A DNA stretch of 64,000 bases, taken from a virus. The notes under the pieces are model-generated. The model was not told the origin of the DNA, searched no databases, and saw only the letters and a program-made list of their open reading frames with translations. Each line of letters opens with the position of its first letter. Position 1 is the first letter of the stretch. The stretch is taken from positions 1-64,000 of IMG/VR virus record IMGVR_UViG_3300023257_000013; one strand, written 5' to 3'. A program made the translations under genes and the position numbers. Below, in pieces: positions 1 through 56,100 of the stretch.

Positions 1-198
1 TTGTATCGAAGATGTTACCAACCATTTCAGGTCTTGTTTCGTCCTTCGATACTGCTAGAGCCTGAGACTGGACCAATCTCAGGGTAGCTGTCCTTAAAGA
101 CAACCCGGAGAACATAGGAGTCTCACCCTTAGTTCCACCATTTTTATTCTGGTGGTTCACCTTAACACTCCTCCTTAGCCTCAACCTCGATCATTGCA
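1..198 (-). ncRNA. Stand-alone IscB omega-RNA copy (partial at window edge)
   Basis: Positions 1-182 match 6497-6678, the leader of the intact iscB, at 180 of 182 bases without gaps; only 128 and 130 differ. Similarity stops abruptly after 182, as expected at an IS200/IS605-type left end. In IscB systems the omega-RNA lies upstream of iscB and takes its guide from the sequence flanking the left end. Here the guide-position bases would be the complement of 183-198 (TGCAATGATCGAGGTT), which lies inside the SLOG-like gene. The rest of the scaffold and any iscB lie left of position 1, so it is unknown whether this is solo or part of a full element. Homology is certain; the RNA role is inferred from the family. 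Confidence 0.75.
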
Positions 199-5232: not shown

Positions 5233-5251
5233 GACAGTGCTCAACACTGTC
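5233..5251 (-). repeat. Hairpin at the putative right end of the IscB element
   Basis: GACAGTG (5233-5239) and CACTGTC (5245-5251) form a perfect 7-bp stem with a 5-base loop, overlapping the iscB stop codon and lying just before the ribosome site of the holin-like gene. IS200/IS605-type elements carry subterminal hairpins recognised by their TnpA transposase; this one is at the expected right end. The exact end cannot be fixed without an empty site. Confidence 0.45.
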
Positions 5252-6440
5252 AGACATAAACAAGACCCCCAAAGCGCCACAAAACTTGGGATTTGTTATA
5301 CGAAACAGGAAAGTTACTGTCCCAATTCGTTCGTAAAGTAAGGGTAGTCTTCTTTAGACTCCTTATGGACCCAACAACTACACCACGAGTACGATGACGA
5401 GCCTTCACCAAATCCCAATGTCTAAAACCCCGAAACTCAAAACGCTTTTTCGTGGGATTGTTTTCCCATACCTTCGTTCTCTTCGGGATAACCAAAAAAG
5501 ACCTTAGACACAAGTAGGGCTTGCAGCCCCGACAAACCATAGCAACGGCATCTAAGTCATGTGCTTTCTCCAACTCAAGACATTTCCGCCACTTGGCAGT
5601 CATCCACCCGAAACAAACCTCGATTCTTAAGCCAATCCCATGAAGAAGCTCCCTCAGGTAATTCTTACCTGCTTGTAGATGAGCAGGATACCTAAAAGGA
5701 CGAGGCTTCTTTGTCAGCACCCACAATCCTTCATGAAGATCCGCATGACATGTCCCACAAAGAGTAAGCCCATTTTGAGGGGAATCCCCACCACCTCGAC
5801 TCTTAAACTGAATGTGGTGGGCTTGAAGGCGATCAGAGGTACCACAATGTTGACACTTGTATTTGTCTCGCCACAGCACCTTAGCTCGAAAACCCCCCTT
5901 ACTGTATTCAGATTTCTGAAATTCTGCCCCTGTCAATTTTCGTCCTGCAACCAAACTACTTGTGTCAAACTGACCTTCTTCAATCGTAGCCTCGATGATG
6001 TTCAACCTCTTTTTGAGATCGACAAGCACTCTCAAAATGGATTCTTTCTTCTGTCGGATCGTTGGGGGCAGAAAGCCCCTTCTACCCCTGTTCCTGAATC
6101 TCGGTGCCCGAAAGCGTAACCGACTTCTCCTCGTTCGTCGATACGCTGCCCGTTGTGTCATTTTCCTCGAAACGTCTTGTCTCAAACGAATTGTGCCTCG
6201 GAAAACAACTTCTTTCTGATGCCTGTTTACAACTGCAATACCAACGTGTTTCGCTCCATCATCGATACCAACAGTGAAGGCTCCAACAGGATTCTCAACA
6301 ACACGGCTCAATTGAATCGTAAACGGCACCACTTGGTGTACCTGGGCACGACCAGCTCGCAACAATTTTCTAGAGCGTGCTGGGTGAGTGGGAAGTAGCT
6401 GCTTCCCGTCAGCGTCAATCACAAAGATTTTCTGTGTCAT
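5250..6440 (-). CDS. iscB: IscB RNA-guided endonuclease
   Basis: This 396-residue protein is a full-length IscB, the ancestor-like relative of Cas9. An N-terminal PLMP-type segment (QLLPTHPARSRKLLRAG, 14-30) is followed by RuvC-I with D60 (VGIDDGAKHVGIAV), an Arg-rich bridge helix at about 100-121, and RuvC-II near E150 (NIIEATIEEGQFD). The HNH domain at 190-240 has Cys196/199/228/231, AHH at 207-209 and N223, and RuvC-III has H294 and D297 (AHDLDAVA). All expected catalytic residues appear intact, so it should cut DNA guided by the omega-RNA encoded just upstream. ATG at 6440 follows GGGAGGTGTCTTAA. Known IscBs nick or cut both strands next to a 3' target-adjacent motif; the motif here is unknown. 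Confidence 0.93.
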   Translation of the reverse strand: MTQKIFVIDADGKQLLPTHPARSRKLLRAGRAQVHQVVPFTIQLSRVVENPVGAFTVGIDDGAKHVGIAVVNRHQKEVVFRGTIRLRQDVSRKMTQRAAYRRTRRSRLRFRAPRFRNRGRRGFLPPTIRQKKESILRVLVDLKKRLNIIEATIEEGQFDTSSLVAGRKLTGAEFQKSEYSKGGFRAKVLWRDKYKCQHCGTSDRLQAHHIQFKSRGGGDSPQNGLTLCGTCHADLHEGLWVLTKKPRPFRYPAHLQAGKNYLRELLHGIGLRIEVCFGWMTAKWRKCLELEKAHDLDAVAMVCRGCKPYLCLRSFLVIPKRTKVWENNPTKKRFEFRGFRHWDLVKARHRTRGVVVGSIRSLKKTTLTLRTNWDSNFPVSYNKSQVLWRFGGLVYV

Positions 6441-6656
6441 TTAAGACACCTCCCGAAGGGAAATTGTTGTCCTCGGCAAAGTTTCCGGGCCTCTGGTTGT
6501 ATCGAAGATGTTACCAACCATTTCAGGTCTTGTTTCGTCCTTCGATACTGCTAGAGCCTGAGACTGGACCAATCTCAGGGTAGCTGTCCTTAAAGACAAC
6601 CCGGAGAACATAGGAGTCTCACCTTCAGTTCCACCATTTTTATTCTGGTGGTTCAC
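6441..6656 (-). CDS. Possible 71-codon leader ORF inside the omega-RNA
   Basis: A GTG at 6656 is preceded by AAGGAGGAGTGTTAAG, one of the best Shine-Dalgarno matches in the window, and opens a 71-codon frame whose TAA directly abuts the ATG of iscB. The second omega-RNA copy keeps the ribosome site, the start and the open frame over all visible bases; its two differences change a single codon (Glu to Lys). The peptide (MNHQNKNGG..., Ser/Thr/Arg-rich) resembles nothing I know. It could couple iscB translation to passage through the RNA, or be a chance frame in a structured RNA. Confidence 0.25.
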   Translation of the reverse strand: MNHQNKNGGTEGETPMFSGLSLRTATLRLVQSQALAVSKDETRPEMVGNIFDTTRGPETLPRTTISLREVS

Positions 6657-6694
6657 CTTAACACTCCTCCTTAGCCTCGAAGCCGCATGTTCGG
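6441..6694 (-). ncRNA. IscB omega-RNA (scaffold 6441-6678, guide about 6679-6694)
   Basis: The non-coding leader directly upstream of iscB is where omega-RNAs are encoded in this family. Positions 6497-6678 recur at 1-182 with 180 of 182 identity but different flanks, showing a conserved mobile RNA unit with a sharp left boundary. The guide would be the complement of 6679-6694 (CCGAACATGCGGCTTC). Several self-complementary segments are visible, such as CCACC/GGTGG around 6632-6652 and CTGAGA/TCTCAG around 6559-6579. The 3' limit near the iscB start is an assumption from family architecture. Confidence 0.75.
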
Positions 6695-21244: not shown

Positions 21245-21420
21245 TTAGGCATGGCATAATTGCCCCTTACCTTGCAAAGGTAATTCGCTCACCGTTGATA
21301 GACCCTCCGGTCTGCAACTGGTGTCCAGGTTGAGCAGTCCCAACCGATGGCATTTAGTCCGCTCAAGCAAAATACCCCGAACTTTCCGGTACGGAGTCCA
21401 ACGACCTATCTCAAAGTCGT
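21245..21420 (-). ncRNA. Probable TnpB omega-RNA/right end of the 462-aa tnpB
   Basis: TnpB omega-RNAs overlap the 3' end of tnpB and take the guide from sequence just past the right end. The 3' part of this gene holds a perfect 7-bp hairpin (TTACCTT 21267-21273, AAGGTAA 21277-21283, loop GCA), a typical IS200/IS605 right-end structure. The exact RNA limits and guide position cannot be fixed because no second copy exists in the window; the guide would fall within or just before the start of the tailspike-like gene at 21230. Confidence 0.4.
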
Positions 21421-22633
21421 AATGTCTTGCCAAAACGTTTCGTGCAGCATTCTCATCAGAGTGCAAAACAACCCCATCAAAACAGTAAAACGAATCCCCC
21501 TTACGACGTCCACGAAGAACACCATAACGAGAATCCACTTGCGATGTATATGCACAATTAACGAGCGCAAGCGTAGAACCTCTACGCTGAGATACGGAAT
21601 CAAGACTCTCCGCAATGACACCCTTGGTCCAAGCGGAAAGTCGCCGGTTCATATTCCTCCCATAAGATCTTTTCGAAGGAATAGGTGAGGTTAAATCCTC
21701 AGCAACCACTACTGCTGCTTTATCAACAACAGCATGAGCAGCTTTGAAAACCTTGTCTCGAACACAAACCTTTACAACCCGATCTCGTCGATCAAGTTTC
21801 TTTCGACCAAGATTGTTTCGTTCGATGTCCACCCTTTTATGAGGCTTGTTCCTAGCAATTGCCTTGAGTTTGTTTCGTCGTTGGTATTTGACCTTCAGGT
21901 AACCGGACTCTGAGGACAACAGTTTCCCCAATCCTTCCCCATGGTGGTCTCCGTCAGAATCTACAAGGACTTCCGTGTAACCTTTGTCCACCCCAAGTGT
22001 TTTGTCTCCGTGACGGTTTTCCTTTTTGACCTCGATTTGATAATGGATCTCAACCTTACCACCTCGAAGGATCAGTCGGAGAGTACCTGTTGGGTGTACG
22101 TTAGTGTCTAAGGGAATCGAGATCCTTTTTCGTGGTGTTAACCCTGGTATCTTAAGCCAAACGCTACCGTCGAGTTCAAAAGTCCTGTAGTTGTCAGTAC
22201 GAACGATGATCTGATTATGGGTGTGGTTGTGTCCTCGCTTCCAGTACTTTCGCATGATACGAGTCAAATAAGGATCGGTGGTCCAATTATCTGACTTAAG
22301 AAGCGTATACAGACACTTTCTTTCAGCAACGTCAGTTGTGTGGCGGCAAACCGCTTTTCTTGCTTTGACCTTTGCTGCTTCCCTAGAGGTCTTGATGTCA
22401 GAAACAGTATCCCTTAGGGTTTCTTTCCAGGCGTTGGCTGGAACATCAAACTCTTTCTTCTGTTGCAGCCATTCGTCCCGGATTTCCCTATCCGATTTTC
22501 CCACCCCATTTACAGATCCGAATCGTTGCCATATTTCTGAACGAAGTTCCCCTAATCGGTGCGCTTGTTCCTCTAAGGCAGTGAATTTACCTGCATTGAG
22601 GTTTTTGGAAAAGAGTATTCGGGTAACCTTCAT
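21245..22633 (-). CDS. tnpB: TnpB-type RuvC nuclease with degenerate zinc finger
   Basis: This 462-residue protein of the IS605 OrfB/TnpB group has RuvC-I D216 (LGVDKGYTEVLVDSDG), RuvC-II E312 (VVVAEDL) and RuvC-III D393 (HSDENAARNV). The usual Cys4 zinc ribbon between II and III is largely lost: TSQVDSRYG (363-371) occupies the place of TSQ-x-C-x-x-CG, and only C384 remains of the second pair. The catalytic triad is intact, so RNA-guided DNA cleavage is expected. A separate 5'-end helical domain (1-140) is longer than in the other TnpB here, so they belong to different lineages. The stop TAA overlaps AAAGGA, the ribosome site of the tailspike-like gene. No TnpA is present. Confidence 0.88.
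   Translation of the reverse strand: MKVTRILFSKNLNAGKFTALEEQAHRLGELRSEIWQRFGSVNGVGKSDREIRDEWLQQKKEFDVPANAWKETLRDTVSDIKTSREAAKVKARKAVCRHTTDVAERKCLYTLLKSDNWTTDPYLTRIMRKYWKRGHNHTHNQIIVRTDNYRTFELDGSVWLKIPGLTPRKRISIPLDTNVHPTGTLRLILRGGKVEIHYQIEVKKENRHGDKTLGVDKGYTEVLVDSDGDHHGEGLGKLLSSESGYLKVKYQRRNKLKAIARNKPHKRVDIERNNLGRKKLDRRDRVVKVCVRDKVFKAAHAVVDKAAVVVAEDLTSPIPSKRSYGRNMNRRLSAWTKGVIAESLDSVSQRRGSTLALVNCAYTSQVDSRYGVLRGRRKGDSFYCFDGVVLHSDENAARNVLARHYDFEIGRWTPYRKVRGILLERTKCHRLGLLNLDTSCRPEGLSTVSELPLQGKGQLCHA
21267..21283 (-). repeat. Perfect hairpin near right end of tnpB element
   Basis: A 7-bp perfect stem (TTACCTT/AAGGTAA) with a 3-base loop lies within the last codons of the 462-aa tnpB. This is the expected location of a TnpA-recognised right-end hairpin and of the 3' scaffold of the omega-RNA. 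Confidence 0.5.
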
Positions 22634-37814: not shown

Positions 37815-40800
37815 TTAGATGATGAACCAACCAGCGGCACCGCTAAAGTACATTGTCAGGCTGAACTGGTGGTCCAACGGGTTGTTGTAGACACGGGGTC
37901 CAGCGACACCGTCGATATTGGCTGCCCCCGGAACGATGTTCACAGGAGTAAGTGGAGCCAACACACCCGCCTCGTGCTTGACCGTAAGCTGTGTCGCCAC
38001 AGCAGGAGCTACTGGAAGTGTCACCGTAACAGTACCTGCCGTGTTATCCACCCCAACAATAGCGATTCCTGGTCCAACAAGCGCTCCAGGATTGAGCATT
38101 GGCTGATAGCCACCAGGAACGGCAATAATGGGCACATCTGCCGAGACTGTACCGTGAACATGGAACAGATTGGCTCCAATGCAACTCAGACCCACATGAT
38201 TGACGTAGCTCCCTGCAACATATGTCGCCGCCGGGGGGACCAAGTCTCCCATCATTGTGTTGAGTGCCCCGCCCTGATCATCCGTCATGTAGAGGATGAA
38301 GGCGGTCGGCCCCGTGTTCAGACCCGTGAGTCTTAGTGTGGTCCCCATGACGGCTGTAGCCGCCAAACTCAGGGAAGTGGTGTTGATTCGGGCCACCAAA
38401 GTGCCAATGGTGTCCGCCGCCAGGATCGTGTGCTCCTCCACACCATTGATGGTCTGAATGTAGAAGGTGCCTGTGGCGGGACCAGGAACAAAAGGTCCGG
38501 CAGCCAACAAAGTGGGGGCCGTCGCCGTTGAGGGGTCCGCCAACTCTAGACGTCCGTTAGTAACAGTGTGGGCACCGGGGGCAACCCACACAGAACCCGT
38601 AGTGGGTGCGGGGTTTCCTGCGGAACCCGCTTGTAGATGAACGTCACCGCCCCCAGGGCCAAGTGCCCCTACCCCGGATCCTGCAACCAGACTTGCAGCC
38701 CCCGGCCTGAGGAGTAGACCAGCACTGTTCCTCGTGTGGACAGTGTAGTCGAAAGGCAAAGAAGGATCGGAACCCACCTGAACCAGAGCCAACGAATTCA
38801 GCCCCGTCACGTTGGGGAAGACATTGCGACCCATCTTAAGGATCACACCCATCCCAAAGGTGTTGGGGTCGACCGTAAACTCGGAGCCCAGGCCATCCCC
38901 CATCAGGGGGCCTATATCAACCTGACCCTCTACCTGAAGACCGCCCAACAGGAGCGGCTCGTAGGGTACCACCGGGGCAAGTGCCGCCGTGATCTGAACA
39001 GCTCCGGCACCCGCCTCGATGGTCCGGCCCAACCCATCACCCGCTACCGGGGGGTTCAAGGAAGCGAGGCCGTTATATGCAGACTCCAGGGAGTAGAACG
39101 GTGCTCCCGTGACGGGCAGCACGTAACGAGTCAGGAGCGTAAGGGCCTCCTGGACGTTACCCACCGGGATCTGCTGAAGACTGTTCAGCGAAAGCGTCGT
39201 CAGAGGGTTGGTGAAGTTGTTGTCAAAATAGTTGGCGTAGCTCTGAGAACTGGGCTCCACCGTAGGCACGTTTCCAGGGGCCGTGGGGACATCCAGATAA
39301 TCCCCTGCGGTAGCTCCACGGACAACAACGTCCCCGTGGTTGAAAGTGCAGGATCCGGTCGTACCAGTCGGGGTCACTGACACAGGGGCAACCAGCAGAG
39401 CTACATCAAAGGAAACAGCGTTGAGTTCCAGTTCCACATCGTGGGTGTAGGCCCCCACCCCGTAAGCCCCGGAACTAAGCACCACAGGCCCCCCAATCTC
39501 AGAGGTAGCAAACGTCGTACTGCTGGGGTATCCCTGATAGGCAGTACCTCCGACCCCTGCTGTAATCACAGCACTGCGGATGTCTACAGCCAGCGTAGAT
39601 GCTCCTGCGACAGGATCCGAGAGACAGAACACAGCGGATGGCCCAACGATCATCCCCCCTGTAAAGGTGACTGCTCCAGCAAGGTTCTCAAGGACGAGCG
39701 CATATTGAGTTGCAGGAGAGCCCTCTGAACTCAAGAGACATTGGTCAGCCCAGACCGTAGACTCAAAAGCCTGATCAACATGAAGAGCAGGCCCCTGCGT
39801 TCCGGAAACACCTTCCTGCTGGACTGCAACGTCCTGAAGGATGAGAATACCACCGTTGTTTTCCAGAACCGCCCCGGTTGTAACGAGACTATTCGTCAGG
39901 TGCATCCCTATCAAAACACAGAGGTCACCGGGACCTGTTGCCGTAAACGTGTGGGAACCTGTAGTGGTGGCATCAACTGTAGTGACCCGATTGTAGTACC
40001 CCCCAGCCCCCATCAAATAAACGAAGGGGACCAGCGCTAAGTCCTCATTGTAAGTCCCAGGGGCCACATTGATGATGTAGGGATCCCCTGCAGCCAAGGC
40101 CGGTTCCCCCCTGGCGACAGCAGCGGAAGCGTAGCTGATGGCTTCAGAGATGGAGGAGAAGTCCCCACACCCTACCGCCGACATCCGCATCCCACTCTCA
40201 TCTCTCGCTGCGGAGTCCGGTCCGGGGACACGCACGATATTTGTAGTATCGTCGGACGCCTGAGAGGTAAGGAAGGTCCGCCCCCTGTTGGGATCAACGT
40301 AGAGCGTCCGGCCCGTAGTCATTCCCCGGCGCACCATCAGCATCAGCCGCTGGATGTTCTGGTTCTGGACATCCGACCACCCTTCGGTCGCTGCGTCCAC
40401 AGGAACCACACCACCTTGGTCCCGACGCTCCCCGGCGGCGATGAGCTTCAGATCACCGAAGGTAGTCATCAATCGAAGCCGGATGAACTGAGAGTCCTCG
40501 TCTACCGTGCCCGCATCAGTGATGAGACGGATGAGGTAGGAACCGTCCCAGTCTACATCAAACTTGCACGTGGCCGACGTGCTACCCTCGGGGGGCAGCA
40601 GGCCCGCAGTGGACGGAGTACCTGTGAAGTCGTTCCCAGAGGCCGCTGTGGGGCCAGGGGAATCCGGAGTGAACACAAGGGACCAACTGTAGGTCGTCGC
40701 CACGTTAAGTGACTCACAGACCACACGGTAGCCCTTTTGTAGATCGTTCCTGCTGATCCCCGTCTCGGTGGGTCCAACCTGGGGGCCAACCGGAGAGGTG

Positions 40801-40829
40801 TATAGTTTACTGACGATTACCGCTGCCAT
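37815..40829 (-). CDS. Beta-helix-like tail/adhesin protein (1004 aa)
   Basis: The ATG at 40829 sits two bases past the conserved right end of a TnpB-type relic; the GGGGAAAGG that precedes it belongs to that relic. Residues 1-130 are an Ig-like domain (TYSWSLVFTPDSP, GSYLIRLITDAG). From about 210 (CGDFSSISEAISYASAAVAR, then INVAPGTYNEDL and VYLMGAGGYYNRV) a pectin-lyase-like beta-helix begins and continues to about 500. The C-terminal third contains Thr/Ala/Val-rich beta segments and ends with NNPLDHQFSLTMYFSGAAGW, a trimerisation-type tip. Similar in layout to, but much shorter than, the 1766-aa tailspike-like protein. Probably a receptor-binding spike. Confidence 0.75.
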   Translation of the reverse strand: MAAVIVSKLYTSPVGPQVGPTETGISRNDLQKGYRVVCESLNVATTYSWSLVFTPDSPGPTAASGNDFTGTPSTAGLLPPEGSTSATCKFDVDWDGSYLIRLITDAGTVDEDSQFIRLRLMTTFGDLKLIAAGERRDQGGVVPVDAATEGWSDVQNQNIQRLMLMVRRGMTTGRTLYVDPNRGRTFLTSQASDDTTNIVRVPGPDSAARDESGMRMSAVGCGDFSSISEAISYASAAVARGEPALAAGDPYIINVAPGTYNEDLALVPFVYLMGAGGYYNRVTTVDATTTGSHTFTATGPGDLCVLIGMHLTNSLVTTGAVLENNGGILILQDVAVQQEGVSGTQGPALHVDQAFESTVWADQCLLSSEGSPATQYALVLENLAGAVTFTGGMIVGPSAVFCLSDPVAGASTLAVDIRSAVITAGVGGTAYQGYPSSTTFATSEIGGPVVLSSGAYGVGAYTHDVELELNAVSFDVALLVAPVSVTPTGTTGSCTFNHGDVVVRGATAGDYLDVPTAPGNVPTVEPSSQSYANYFDNNFTNPLTTLSLNSLQQIPVGNVQEALTLLTRYVLPVTGAPFYSLESAYNGLASLNPPVAGDGLGRTIEAGAGAVQITAALAPVVPYEPLLLGGLQVEGQVDIGPLMGDGLGSEFTVDPNTFGMGVILKMGRNVFPNVTGLNSLALVQVGSDPSLPFDYTVHTRNSAGLLLRPGAASLVAGSGVGALGPGGGDVHLQAGSAGNPAPTTGSVWVAPGAHTVTNGRLELADPSTATAPTLLAAGPFVPGPATGTFYIQTINGVEEHTILAADTIGTLVARINTTSLSLAATAVMGTTLRLTGLNTGPTAFILYMTDDQGGALNTMMGDLVPPAATYVAGSYVNHVGLSCIGANLFHVHGTVSADVPIIAVPGGYQPMLNPGALVGPGIAIVGVDNTAGTVTVTLPVAPAVATQLTVKHEAGVLAPLTPVNIVPGAANIDGVAGPRVYNNPLDHQFSLTMYFSGAAGWFII

Positions 40830-40925
40830 GGCTTCTGCTACCTTTCCCCACGCACAAAAACGTAGGAATTAGCCCCTACTCCAACGAGGACAGTTTCGTT
40901 TCAGCTAATGCCGAAACCAGCGCCC
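40816..40925 (-). ncRNA. Solo TnpB omega-RNA / right-end relic
   Basis: Positions 40832-40924 align with 51930-52021, the 3' end and right end of the 402-aa tnpB, at roughly 84% with one gap. Read as protein, the relic keeps ALV-S-ALAETKL of the TnpB C-terminus but then meets a stop, so it is not coding. The hairpin seen in the intact copy (CCCCTACGC ... GTGCGTGGGG) is retained through C-G to U-A or U-G changes. Selection on structure rather than protein is implied. The guide would be the complement of 40816-40831 (CCATGGCAGCGGTAAT), which covers the start codon of the 1004-aa gene. The remaining 59 bases to the next gene (40926-40984) contain no recognised feature. Confidence 0.6.
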
Positions 40926-40984
40926 CGTTACACACTGTCAAGAACCCTAGAAACGTTCTCCTACCTCATTGGCTAAAAACTGGG

Positions 40985-51697: not shown

Positions 51698-51924
51698 CAG
51701 GATCCCCCACCGTGTTTCAGTCGGGCCAACTGTTCATGCAGCCCCGACAATGCGGCCTGATCCTGGGCCACCATAGTCTCCAGGAAGGTGCGGAGCTTGA
51801 CGAGAGTTTCAGCCTGACGCTGCATCAGGGGAGGAGTGGCAGCGTGCCCTTCCATCTCACCCCAGGCCCCAGGGTCCACCCCGAGTTTGTCCAGCAAGTC
51901 CTGAATTTCTTTAGGGATCTCCAC
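51697..51924 (-). CDS. Small helical protein (75 aa)
   Basis: I take the GTG at 51924 (VEIPKEIQDLLDKLGVDPGA...) as the start: it overlaps the tnpB stop as TAGTG, and the site before it (GGGGAAAGG/CAGAAGG) belongs to the tnpB right end. An in-frame GTG at 51954 would lie inside tnpB and add ten codons encoded by the element. The C-terminal half (MQRQAETLVKLRTFLETMVA, then QDQAALSGLHEQLARL) is a likely coiled coil. Its stop overlaps the 964-aa start. Probably an assembly or adapter protein; unknown. Confidence 0.62.
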   Translation of the reverse strand: MEIPKEIQDLLDKLGVDPGAWGEMEGHAATPPLMQRQAETLVKLRTFLETMVAQDQAALSGLHEQLARLKHGGGS

Positions 51925-52060
51925 TAGGCCTTCTGATACCTTTCCCCCACGCACAAAGGCGTAGGGGTTAGTTCCTGCTTCATCAAAGGCAGTTTCGTTT
52001 CAGCTAATGCCAAAACCAGCGCTTCCTTCTCCACAAGCGTAACTTCCCGTGTAACCCACG
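51914..52060 (-). ncRNA. TnpB omega-RNA of the 402-aa tnpB (approximate limits)
   Basis: In TnpB systems the omega-RNA comprises the 3' end of tnpB plus the flanking guide. The last 92 bases of this element (51930-52021) are conserved in the solo relic at 40832-40924, and similarity ends exactly at 51930, marking the right end. A hairpin of 9 pairs with one G-U (CCCCTACGC at 51960-51968 and GTGCGTGGGG-type arm at 51944-51953 on the minus strand) lies near the end. The guide would be the complement of 51914-51929 (GCCTAGTGGAGATCCC). The 5' limit is assumed. Confidence 0.6.
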
Positions 52061-53132
52061 GTAGTAAGTTCAAAGCGGCATTGACATCTCTGTCAATTTC
52101 CCAACCGCAGGCGCACTTGAAGGTACGCTCGGATAGGCTTAACTTAGCCCTCTTTTCACAACACAAAAAACAGGTCTTCGACGAAGCGTAAAAACGATCA
52201 TGAACAACGACCACGTCATCAAAGATGACCGCCTTATAATTGATCTGCCGTCGAAACCCCCCCCATCCCTCATCCACGATGTGGCGGCTCAACCGCCTAT
52301 TACGAACCATGTTCTGTACAGCCAAATCCTCGATCCCTATCGCTTGGTTCTCACGACAGAGCCTTGTACTCAGTTTGTGCAGATAGTCGGATCGGACGTA
52401 ACCGATCCGACGGTGCAATCGAGCCAATTTCATTGTCGATTTACGGCGATTTGCTGATCCCTTCTGTTTGCGGGAATGCCAACGGGACTCCCGTTGCAAC
52501 TTCCTCAGGTTCTTTTTCAAGGCCTTTGGTCCTTGAATATGCTCCCCGGTGGAGAGTGTAGCAGAGGATCTGATACCCAAATCGACACCGACCTCACTAT
52601 TGGCAATGCGGTCACGTCGATAGTCACCGACATCGACCTGTACTACAACGAACCAGGCGTCAGCTACACGCTTGACGATAGCACTGGTGATCATACCCTC
52701 GAAACGTAGGACTTCACGCAACCTGACCCATCCTATTTTGGGTAAGTGGATACGTTTGTTGTCTAATCGGAATCGGTCATTAGCTATGTAGAAAGAGTCC
52801 TTGCACCCACCTCGTTTTTTAAACTTGGGGTAGCCTGGTTTTCGACCCGCTTTCATACGATGGAAAAAATGCGTGAACGCCTTTTGGAGTTGCGTGAAAG
52901 ACTGGGCTGTACAGTCCCTGTGAACTTCATAAGTCCAGGGAAACTTCTCACGACGGATAGCATTGAACTGTTTCTTGAGAGAAGATCCAGAAGGTTTTTC
53001 TCCCGCCTCGTAGGCGCTTTTCCAATGTTCCAACGCCCAGTTGTACGTGAACCTCGCCACACCACAGGCATGACGAAAGTATTCCTCCTGCGTTCGGGAG
53101 GGACGGAGCCTTATTTCATGAGCTAGAAGCAC
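51924..53132 (-). CDS. tnpB: TnpB RNA-guided nuclease (canonical)
   Basis: This 402-residue protein is a standard IS200/IS605 TnpB. It has an N-terminal helical region with YNWALEHWK (30-38), the WED/REC-type basic part with GRKPGYPKFKKRGG (96-109), RuvC-I D184 (VGVDLGIRSSATLS), RuvC-II E268 (AIGIEDLAVQNM), a zinc ribbon C321/C324 and C340/C342 (CFLC ... KCACG) and RuvC-III D349 (DRDVNAALNL). All catalytic residues are intact. The start is the GTG at 53132, behind AGAGGGGAAAA. No TnpA is present. The gene lies between the giant structural gene and the 75-aa gene; its stop overlaps the next start (TAGTG). Confidence 0.92.
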   Translation of the reverse strand: MLLAHEIRLRPSRTQEEYFRHACGVARFTYNWALEHWKSAYEAGEKPSGSSLKKQFNAIRREKFPWTYEVHRDCTAQSFTQLQKAFTHFFHRMKAGRKPGYPKFKKRGGCKDSFYIANDRFRLDNKRIHLPKIGWVRLREVLRFEGMITSAIVKRVADAWFVVVQVDVGDYRRDRIANSEVGVDLGIRSSATLSTGEHIQGPKALKKNLRKLQRESRWHSRKQKGSANRRKSTMKLARLHRRIGYVRSDYLHKLSTRLCRENQAIGIEDLAVQNMVRNRRLSRHIVDEGWGGFRRQINYKAVIFDDVVVVHDRFYASSKTCFLCCEKRAKLSLSERTFKCACGWEIDRDVNAALNLLPWVTREVTLVEKEALVLALAETKLPLMKQELTPTPLCVGERYQKA

Positions 53133-53198
53133 TTTTCCCCTCTGCCTGCGTGATAGTCATGCACATGACCAACATCTTAAAGCACCGTTGAACACTTA
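51930..53198 (-). mobile_element. TnpB element (IS605-type, no TnpA)
   Basis: The right end is fixed at 51930 by the sharp end of similarity with the relic at 40832. The left end lies in the 66 bases between the tnpB start (53132) and the stop of the giant gene (53199), where ACCGTTGAACACTTATCAAG (53182-53201) weakly resembles CCCGTTACACACTGTCAAG beside the relic. The element neither breaks the giant gene nor the 75-aa gene. Without TnpA it would move with a helper transposase or by break-induced copying. Confidence 0.55.
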
Positions 53199-56100
53199 TC
53201 AAGTTTCAGAGACCTTCTCCATCGATTCCTTCAGGAGCAGATACTGCTCCTGTTCCTGAAGACGTTTGGGTAACTCAGCGTCAAAGCGGCTCAGTGAGGC
53301 AAGCGTGCCCAGAACCTGATGAGTCCGGTAGGCCAACCAGACGTACCGCACGTCCCGGAGCCTCTCAGACTGATCCAGCACATCGTCTACCAAGTCTGGC
53401 AGCACAGGGCGGACCATGCTCCCCGTCACTGTAGAGTACTCAGTGTATGGGGTGTCCCCTGGACCCGCCCTTCTCATCCCCGTCCCGCTGGCTGCATCAT
53501 ACGTCAGGAAGTCCAGCTTCTCGTCCAGGATCCAGAACCTCCTGTCCAGAAGGGACAAGCAGGTCGTGTTATTGGCATAGGGCATCACATCCACCCGGCC
53601 CACCACGGACATGAGGTAGTCGTTAGAGGCCACACCGAGGCCCAACTCCGGGTCGGTCGGGCTGCCCACATCGTACAGGTGGGTGTCCCGTTGGAAGATG
53701 AAATAACTGCCACCCTTGGTGTGCCCAATTTGATTGATCAAAGCGATGAGGGAGAGCATCCGTTCCCGAGTGGACAGGACCAAGTCAATGGTGGCGTCCG
53801 TGAAGAACTGCGTCGGACGAATCACCTGATAAGAGAAGGGCCTTACCGAGTGGTTGCTGAGTCCGCTGGGGTAGTTCTTGAAGGAACCATTCGCAGGATT
53901 CCTCGCCCTCGTCGGACGAAGATCCATCTGCCCCTCCTCGCCAGTCGCAGCCAAAGAAGAGTCGTGGATCGAGGGGTACACCGCATACGCTCGGGTGTCA
54001 TCCGTAGGATCGAACACAACGGGAGCGACATCTGTCCCCGTGAATTCCGTAACCGGATTCACCAGCAAGTAGGGGGGTGTCACCGAATCGACCACCTGGA
54101 GAACCCTGTAGAAGCCCCTGTTGTCATCCAGAGGGTTCGGGCGTCCAGGCACATACACTCCGGCACCGATCCTGACGTCTACAGAATCGTCCCCCACCGG
54201 ACGCATCGCCAACTCTTGCGTTGTGGGATCGCCCGCTAAGTTCTGAGGAATCAACCCGATGGGATCCACCACAACGATATCACCCTTCTGTACCCCCAAC
54301 GCCCCGAAGGTCTGGCCCCCGGTTCCTGGGGCGTTCAGGTCGTCGTAGAGCTTGTTGACATTACCAGCATAGGTGGCCCCACCTGTGACCTCTGGGACGT
54401 AACCACCCAACTCTGAGGCCACACCCCAGGTAGCGTCCGTGCGTGTGACAGCCCGAGAAGTAATGACATCCAGGAGTTGCTCGTTGGTCTGCTCATGGGG
54501 CACCGGAGCGTGCCGGAGGAAAATCTCGAACCGCACGGTCCCGTTAGAGGGGTCATAGAGTTGCAACCCTGGAGGAACAAGAACCAACTCATGTCCTTCC
54601 CTCACGGAACTGATCTCGGCTTCCTCCACTACGTCCCCGAAACGATCCAGGAGCCGGAAGGTGTCCCCGGCGTGGGCGTTCACGTCCTCGTTGTTGAACG
54701 GCCCCAGGTTGGTTCCCAGGTAGGTGGCACCGTCATTCCAAGCGTCGTTCGCTTTGGGTGACCCTGCGGGCTTGATCGATTCCCAGTTCATTGTGAAAGA
54801 GTTGGCCTGCACGATGCACATCTGGCTGGGCATCACAGTGTAATCAGTGATCATTCCTCGGCGGATCTCGTAGGCATATCGCAGGGGCATCAGGTTCGTA
54901 GGAGAACCCCCGACGTTGTGAAAACGACGGATGCGTCTCACAATGAAGGTGACCTCTTCCGGGATGTTCGGTTGCGTAGAAGCACCACCTCCCAGGTAGT
55001 AGTCATGAGCGTTCCTCATCCAGATCTCTCGCACATCATCCGTTGCCGCAAGAGTGGGGTCAGGAAGACTGTGGTCCTGGTCAACAACCCGAACGTGACT
55101 GACTGCCGGAACCAGATCCAACCCGGCACGAGGCACGGAGGGCTCCAGGAAGATCCCTGCCTGGGCACGGAAGCCTGGGAGCATCACCCCGACATTTTCA
55201 CTGGTCATAGCCATCTCGGTCCCAGGGAGGATGCACCGGACTCCCGTCGCACCATGGATGCCGCCGTAGGAGCCACCAGCCACATTCAGGGTGTCCCAAA
55301 GCTGAAGCAGGCTGTTAAACGCCTGCACGTCCAACGTGTGTGCGACCCAGTGGTAGACCGGAGTCGCTGGACTGGGCAGGAACTCATGCCCCGGTTCCGG
55401 GGCAGAGACCATGGGGATCAAGGTGTTGAACCCCGCAACCCTGTCCAAGGCCCCGTCCGTCACGCCGGGTGCCCCCGCAGAGTTGAACACCACAGGTTGA
55501 GCGTTATCCGGGGCGGCAGGGAAATGAGTCAACGACGTGGGCGGCCTGAAGGTCAGCCGCCGGAACCCATAGATGGAAAGGGCTGCATCATCAACGCCCA
55601 CGCAGTTGTCATGGGGCAAACCGTACTCGGCCCCGGAAACCTGTACGGGAAGGAACTGCATCCCCGAGATCTTCGTTCCTACGGTGGCGGAAAGCTCGAA
55701 CTCAGCCTCCGTGATCACCGTCCCCATTGCATCCTGCCAGTTGGCTACCGTGAAGACGCCCCGTCCAGCCACCATCGCCATCCCAGAGTACTCGGCACTG
55801 ATCACAGACCCACGGAAAGTCAACTCATCGAATGAAGCCAACCCTGCAGGACTAATCAACACAAAGACTCGGGTGCCTGCCGCAGGGAGAGGGAACCCGA
55901 CATTGACACCACCCACAAGGGGTCCTCCCGCTGCGGGGGCCAAATCGGAGACCGTCAGTTCATTGGTGACATTGTCGTACCCCAACACCGTGGGATAGAC
56001 CACTGGGCACCAACCCGTCCCTACCCCCGTGGTGGACGTAGGAGCCACCGCTCGGTAGGAACCACCCAAGGTCTCCACTGCATGCCGGACAAGGTACGTC

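Follow-up and report, generated by a model that had tools for sequence, protein, structure and literature searches.

The window analysed here comprises bases 1-64000 of the 109,386-bp virus record IMGVR_UViG_3300023257_000013. Within it, minus-strand positions 40832-40924 match positions 51930-52022, the 3' end of a gene encoding a 402-aa TnpB, with 84% identity (E 6.7e-23, BLAST against the 109-kb record), and these two sites, referred to below as the solo copy and the tnpB copy, are the only BLAST copies of the 93-nt tnpB-end sequence in the record. The features of both loci, all of them on the minus strand, are as follows:

37815..40829, minus strand: gene of 1004 aa (open reading frame; no Pfam or PHROG match), with its start codon 2 bases from the mini-element
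40812..40831, minus strand: predicted guide, that is, the right flank CCATGGCAGCGGTAATCGTC, placed by its position relative to the right end; AAG, as many as 4 bases earlier, is an alternative start
40832..40934, minus strand: predicted omega-RNA scaffold of the solo copy (match to covariance model R1 at 40841-40934; fold z -3.2)
40833..40955, minus strand: candidate mini-element of ~123 bp (left end by alignment to the tnpB element, right end by BLAST; boundaries within about ±4 bases, inside the shared AGAA)
40925..40955, minus strand: left end CGTTTCTAGGGTTCTTGACAGTGTGTAACGG, which through the deletion of tnpB is joined straight to the right end (score 6.5 against the left end of the tnpB element)
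40958..40962, minus strand: AGGAG in the left flank, a ribosome-binding-site-like target or TAM, from its sequence
51924..53132, minus strand: TnpB, 402 aa, GTG start (Pfam PF01385, PF07282 and PF12323; PDB relatives 8BF8 and 8IAZ)
51930..52066, minus strand: omega-RNA of the tnpB element, with 5' hairpin CCGTGGGTTACACGG (R1, 55 bits; RAGATH-18, 24 bits, below gathering)
51931..53214, minus strand: full tnpB element, ~1284 bp, without a TnpA gene (empty site in the related phage L052; no PF00239 or PF01797 in the record)
53185..53214, minus strand: left end of the tnpB element, whose flank ATGGAGAA is phage sequence (left-end alignment; comparison with L052)

Both copies are present with 100% identity in a second, independently assembled contig (L006, 12,187 bp), which rules out an assembly artefact. 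The solo locus encodes no TnpB, and its tnpB frame contains an in-frame TAG and a 1-nt deletion. The 14 substitutions that separate it from the tnpB end are distributed over the codon positions as 5/5/4 and 12 of them are transitions, so the divergence bears no sign of protein constraint. An earlier, sequence-only reading of the locus had reported the 93-base match at about 84%, the absence of tnpB beside it, the broken frame and the loss of protein coding, all of which are borne out. Its designation of the 1004-aa gene as a spike gene finds no profile support in Pfam or PHROG, although the gene lies among baseplate genes, and it included neither the left end of the solo copy, nor the third family RNA of the record, nor a second TnpB-like protein (all described below). 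Comparison of the locus with phages by blastn gave zero matches, and IMG/VR scans with the TnpB, the 1004-aa and a 174-aa protein returned the same virus only.

The 402-aa TnpB retains its RuvC motifs (GVDLG at 182, GIEDL at 266 and DRD at 347-349), on which grounds a TldR-type, nuclease-dead repressor was rejected for this protein. According to alignment, it lacks the lysines with which ISFba1 contacts the AGGAG TAM, and the AGGAG-reading residues are only partly kept. A related phage contig, L052, with about 70-73% nucleotide identity, directly shows the site of the parent tnpB element in its empty state. The upstream gene of L052 ends ATGGAGAAGGTATGAGC, overlapping the next start, whereas the window instead runs ATGGAGAAGG into the tnpB element and resumes past AGAAGG with CCTAGTGGAG; removal of the element from the window leaves a stop-start overlap like that of L052. 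The genes that flank the element also stand side by side in L061, L062 and L054, and no guide-RNA matches were found near the corresponding sites in relatives L052-L063.

Other nuclease-associated elements occur in the window. A second, divergent TnpB-like protein of 462 aa (21245-22633, minus strand; PF07282 at 28.9 bits, PHROG transposase) has RuvC-like motifs, lacks the zinc-ribbon cysteines and has one phage relative, in H. felis phage BK070119 (54%); the 3' end of its gene, with the terminal hairpin TTACCTTTGCAAGGTAA, runs directly up to the start codon of a 1766-aa gene. An IscB-like protein (RRXRR + HNH) is encoded at 5250-6440 (minus strand), with a HEARO-like RNA upstream of its gene (6461-6683, minus strand; 37.9 bits, E 3e-5, below gathering). 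Window positions 1-182, at the start of the record, repeat the IscB RNA region 6497-6678 at 98.9% with a different 5' flank, and thus a different guide; this contig edge holds a putative second IscB or solo RNA. Outside the window, record positions 96481-96961 and 97247-97728 are tandem 480-bp stretches, 78% identical.

The closest annotated relatives of the 402-aa TnpB (46-50% identity) are IS607-type TnpBs on plasmids, several of which adjoin an IS607 serine transposase, and a scan of genome contigs found one relative, at 46%. The right ends of the relatives share a common order: the coding end contains a 5' hairpin, after which come TGTGGAGAGGAAGGC, one hairpin, GAAACCGGCCTC, GAAGCAGGAA, another hairpin within an outer stem and finally GAACGG. 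A pattern scan of IMG/VR for the segment common to these right ends yielded 26 contigs, and covariance model R1 was built from an alignment of 26 relatives outside this phage, with zero window sequences included; 21 pairs are supported in this alignment, 15 of them by changes on both sides. In cmsearch, with E-values that are rough because of a short Infernal calibration, R1 matches the tnpB end at 51939-52035 (55 bits, E 1.3e-12) and the solo copy at 40841-40934 (24.2 bits, E 2e-4), as well as a third copy, which lies at record 103773-103879 and reaches 54.7 bits (E 1.5e-12). Given that the model contains no window sequence and yet matches both window copies in sequence plus structure, the identity of the solo RNA is real. 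The tnpB copy also matches Rfam RAGATH-18 (RF03064) end to end over 51972-52037, at 24 bits and hence below the gathering score of 44.9 bits, the solo copy does not match RF03064, and Rfam at its gathering threshold gives zero matches. The solo and tnpB-end RNAs are members of an IS607-type TnpB guide-RNA family that is a sub-threshold relative of RAGATH-18. The sequence-only reading had taken the solo copy for a TnpB omega-RNA, which the independent model supports, and the check that it proposed, a covariance model of TnpB right ends, upholds the stem (solo E 2e-4). A chance hairpin or an unrelated terminator is very improbable as an explanation of the solo copy. The 21-nt core of the terminal hairpin does stand alone elsewhere, downstream of a putative capsid gene in an unrelated virus, within a terminator-like hairpin (L007:6111-6131, CCTACGCCTTTGTGCGTGGGG; this contig was dropped as a carrier of the family RNA, as only the core matches and the model does not), but the 93-nt match (E 7e-23) together with the R1 match already refutes this explanation for the solo copy.

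The third family RNA (L012:1273-1379, equivalent to record 103773-103879, minus strand) has no tnpB upstream. It may belong to an element of ~363 bp (record 103773-104135) with the left flank TAGGG and the left end TTGCTAACAG, and the sequence of its P1 helix is quite different.

The 103-nt solo RNA folds with a z of -3.2 (0/200 shuffles are as low), and helix P1 is reformed by pairing of the left-end junction sequence with the scaffold. Compared with the tnpB copy, every pair is kept in the first hairpin and in the terminal hairpin (9/9 in the latter), and the outer stem, as defined by the relatives, pairs better in the solo copy. This pair-preserving divergence is observed directly. When the observed substitutions are redistributed at random over like bases, the pairs kept with the outer stem included exceed expectation (21 observed vs 17.7 expected, P 0.007), and those of the hairpins alone do so without significance (P 0.07-0.12). 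The earlier argument that the hairpin survives by structure-preserving changes is thus weak by itself: all nine pairs are kept, but mostly through one-sided changes from C-G to U-G, and the sole C-G to U-A change in the terminal hairpin arises via a deleted G. These observations bear on the main rival explanation, for which there is an appreciable though minor probability, namely that the solo copy is an inert remnant of a former mini-element or tnpB insertion, now decaying, with its stems kept by chance or by its short age. In agreement with it, the solo copy scores only 24 bits, lacks the 5' hairpin, has a changed right-flank base and shows no significant pair-keeping in the hairpins alone. 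Decay is harder to reconcile with a 93-nt core that at 84% identity keeps every pair of two hairpins, with an outer stem that is improved relative to the tnpB copy and with the reformation of P1 by left-end sequence (P 0.007 overall). The solo RNA lacks both the family 5' hairpin (CCGTGAGTTCCACGG type, which is present in the tnpB copy) and the TGTGGAGAGG segment, and for want of this hairpin its activity counts as putative.

Both ends of the solo copy are seen in the sequence, and its left end is joined to its right end, for which reason it is read as a fused element of ~123 bp. The left end, CGTTTCTAGGGTTCTTGACAGTGTGTAACGG, aligns over ~31 bp with GGTCTCTGAAACTTGATAAGTGTTCAACGG upstream of tnpB, with a score that is reached by ~12 non-self positions of 127,940 in the window; the chance of such similarity is about 1% over the possible left-end region, which makes the support moderate. 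The left-end profile of the relatives (GGG-N-TTGAACAGTTTC) does not single out the window ends, and with the family weight matrix the solo left end ranks 174th of 218,732 positions, so its support rests on the alignment of the solo copy with the full element. The left end is homologous to that of a tnpB-bearing partner, as befits a non-autonomous element, and the solo copy is best read as a ~123-bp internally deleted non-autonomous element of the IS607 type. Against the mini-element reading stand the 24-bit score, the missing 5' hairpin and TGTGGAGA segment, a C in place of G after AGAAG and the lack of a transposase in the record, where neither a serine recombinase TnpA (PF00239) nor a Y1 transposase (PF01797) was found; a TnpA copy might be present in the host. 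The likeness to PATEs proposed earlier is right as to the non-autonomous nature of the element and wrong as to its family. Like these non-autonomous IS200/IS605 elements, the solo copy has transposon ends and no genes, and similar internal deletions occur elsewhere. PATEs, however, have palindromic ends acted on by Y1 TnpA and an IS200/IS605-type partner, whereas the relatives of the solo copy carry the IS607 serine recombinase TnpA; with no PF01797 in the record, PATE identity was rejected.

Among known systems, those with an ISFba1-type IS607 TnpB and RAGATH-18 resemble the present one in the type of TnpB, in the position of the RNA at the 3' end of tnpB and in an AGGAG/GAGGG-like left flank, the TAM of IS607 TnpBs being AGGAG or GAGGG in 22 tested strains, and AGGAG in most (PMC11061315). 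The solo copy differs from them in lacking tnpB, tnpA and the 5' part of the RNA. In ISXfa1, the TAM is GGG, the crossover is GG and one right-flank base is part of the scaffold, its deletion having abolished activity (PMC10711439). The nearest relatives, with GGG-N-TTGAACAG on the left, fit this GG crossover and GGG TAM, whereas both window elements are flanked by GGAGAA, and the solo copy lacks the right-flank G, the base after AGAAG being C, in contrast to G in the tnpB element. With respect to the GG crossover, the full element has AGAAGG at both flanks, and the solo copy has CG and GC beside the shared AGAA.

Solo copies are not restricted to this phage. For about nine viral copies of the family RNA, tnpB is absent upstream or represented by its last codons only (L024, L025 = L044, L026, L027, L030, L039, L047, L049 and, in L040, the first copy). 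In three of these contigs (L025, L026 and L049), the left end of the family, GGG-N-TTGAACAG, occurs 92-158 bp upstream, giving a compact size, and L025 keeps an apparent tnpA start, which is the pattern expected of internal deletions. In L040, the solo RNA (565-668) and the tnpB-linked RNA (2094-2197) differ at 2/104 positions (75 and 86, 0-based), which are partners in one stem, so that a single compensatory base pair is their sole difference. Solo copies are also implicit among RAGATH-18 RNAs, 64% of which adjoin an IS607 TnpB and 36% of which do not (PMC11061315). Together with the copies in other viral contigs, this points to a recurring, under-described form, and no description of phage IS607 mini-elements with a guide RNA was found in the open-access literature. 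The solo copy is thus a genuine, structured part of an IS607-type TnpB system, be it a remnant or a mini-element, and a variant that is new; putative activity in trans is plausible.

An AGGAG ribosome-binding site precedes the solo copy and the start codon of the 1004-aa gene follows it, so that the predicted guide is the start of that gene. The sole perfect match of the guide in the record is its own site, and there are zero other close matches. With the two flanks joined, the sequence is AGGAGAAGCCATGG, in which five bases separate a ribosome-binding site from the ATG. At their right ends the two window elements have TATCAGAA and TAGCAGAA; the GGAG flank is thus present in an empty allele and missing from the occupied one. 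That the guide would take TnpB to the beginning of the 1004-aa gene, as proposed earlier, accordingly holds for element-free alleles only, given that in the present genome the element end TAGCAG, and not GGAG, lies 5' of the guide. No close relative with an empty solo site was found, only distant homologues of the 1004-aa gene (L062 and L063), without the RNA.

The proximity of the RNA end to the ATG (2 nt) also raises the improbable alternative of a cis-acting leader, in which the element end would provide the 1004-aa gene with its ribosome-binding region, and the gene would be tuned by TnpB through binding or processing of the leader. The purine-rich GGGGAAAGGTA block, identical in both copies, and an anti-SD pairing of -7.4 kcal/mol, vs -9.2 with the original AGGAG, are compatible with it; retention of the nuclease motifs, which sets this TnpB apart from TldR-type repressors, speaks against it, as does the fact that insertion next to start codons is not enriched among 28 family members (7/28 vs 4.9 expected, P 0.21).

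The explanation that we favour, with somewhat better than even confidence, is that the solo copy is a non-autonomous mini-element whose omega-RNA would be used in trans by the phage TnpB as a homing or retention element. Its most likely role would be that of a trans guide with which TnpB cuts element-free alleles (homing). The solo scaffold would be transcribed as part of a late mRNA and bound in trans by the intact TnpB, encoded 11 kb away. As the biology of TnpB suggests, the nuclease would then cut the element-free alleles of co-infecting or recombining phages, in which GGAG is joined to the guide, and spare the occupied allele; repair would copy the mini-element, which could thus act as a small homing or retention element. 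Stand-alone omega-RNAs of IscB, with no nuclease gene beside them and the nuclease elsewhere in the genome, were reportedly described by Altae-Tran in 2021. The solo copy resembles these in being a guide copy without an adjacent nuclease gene and with the nuclease elsewhere in the genome, and differs from them in that the nuclease is TnpB and not IscB, the genome is that of a phage and the RNA lies inside a defined mini-element.

A broader, rather doubtful extension is that one TnpB might serve several dispersed guides (its own, that of the 123-bp solo element and the third at record 103773-103879), with every guide protecting a locus of its own and directing cuts in rivals that lack the element, which would amount to phage homing or superinfection exclusion aimed at ribosome-binding sites. 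An AGGAG-type target would explain why, in this phage, the insertion separates a ribosome-binding site from a start codon. If it works, the solo copy would be a near-minimal selfish RNA element, ~120 bp that consist of two ends and a guide RNA, with a nuclease borrowed within the genome; trans-acting TnpB guides in phages would then be directly testable, and many stand-alone guide RNAs of the family would be explained.
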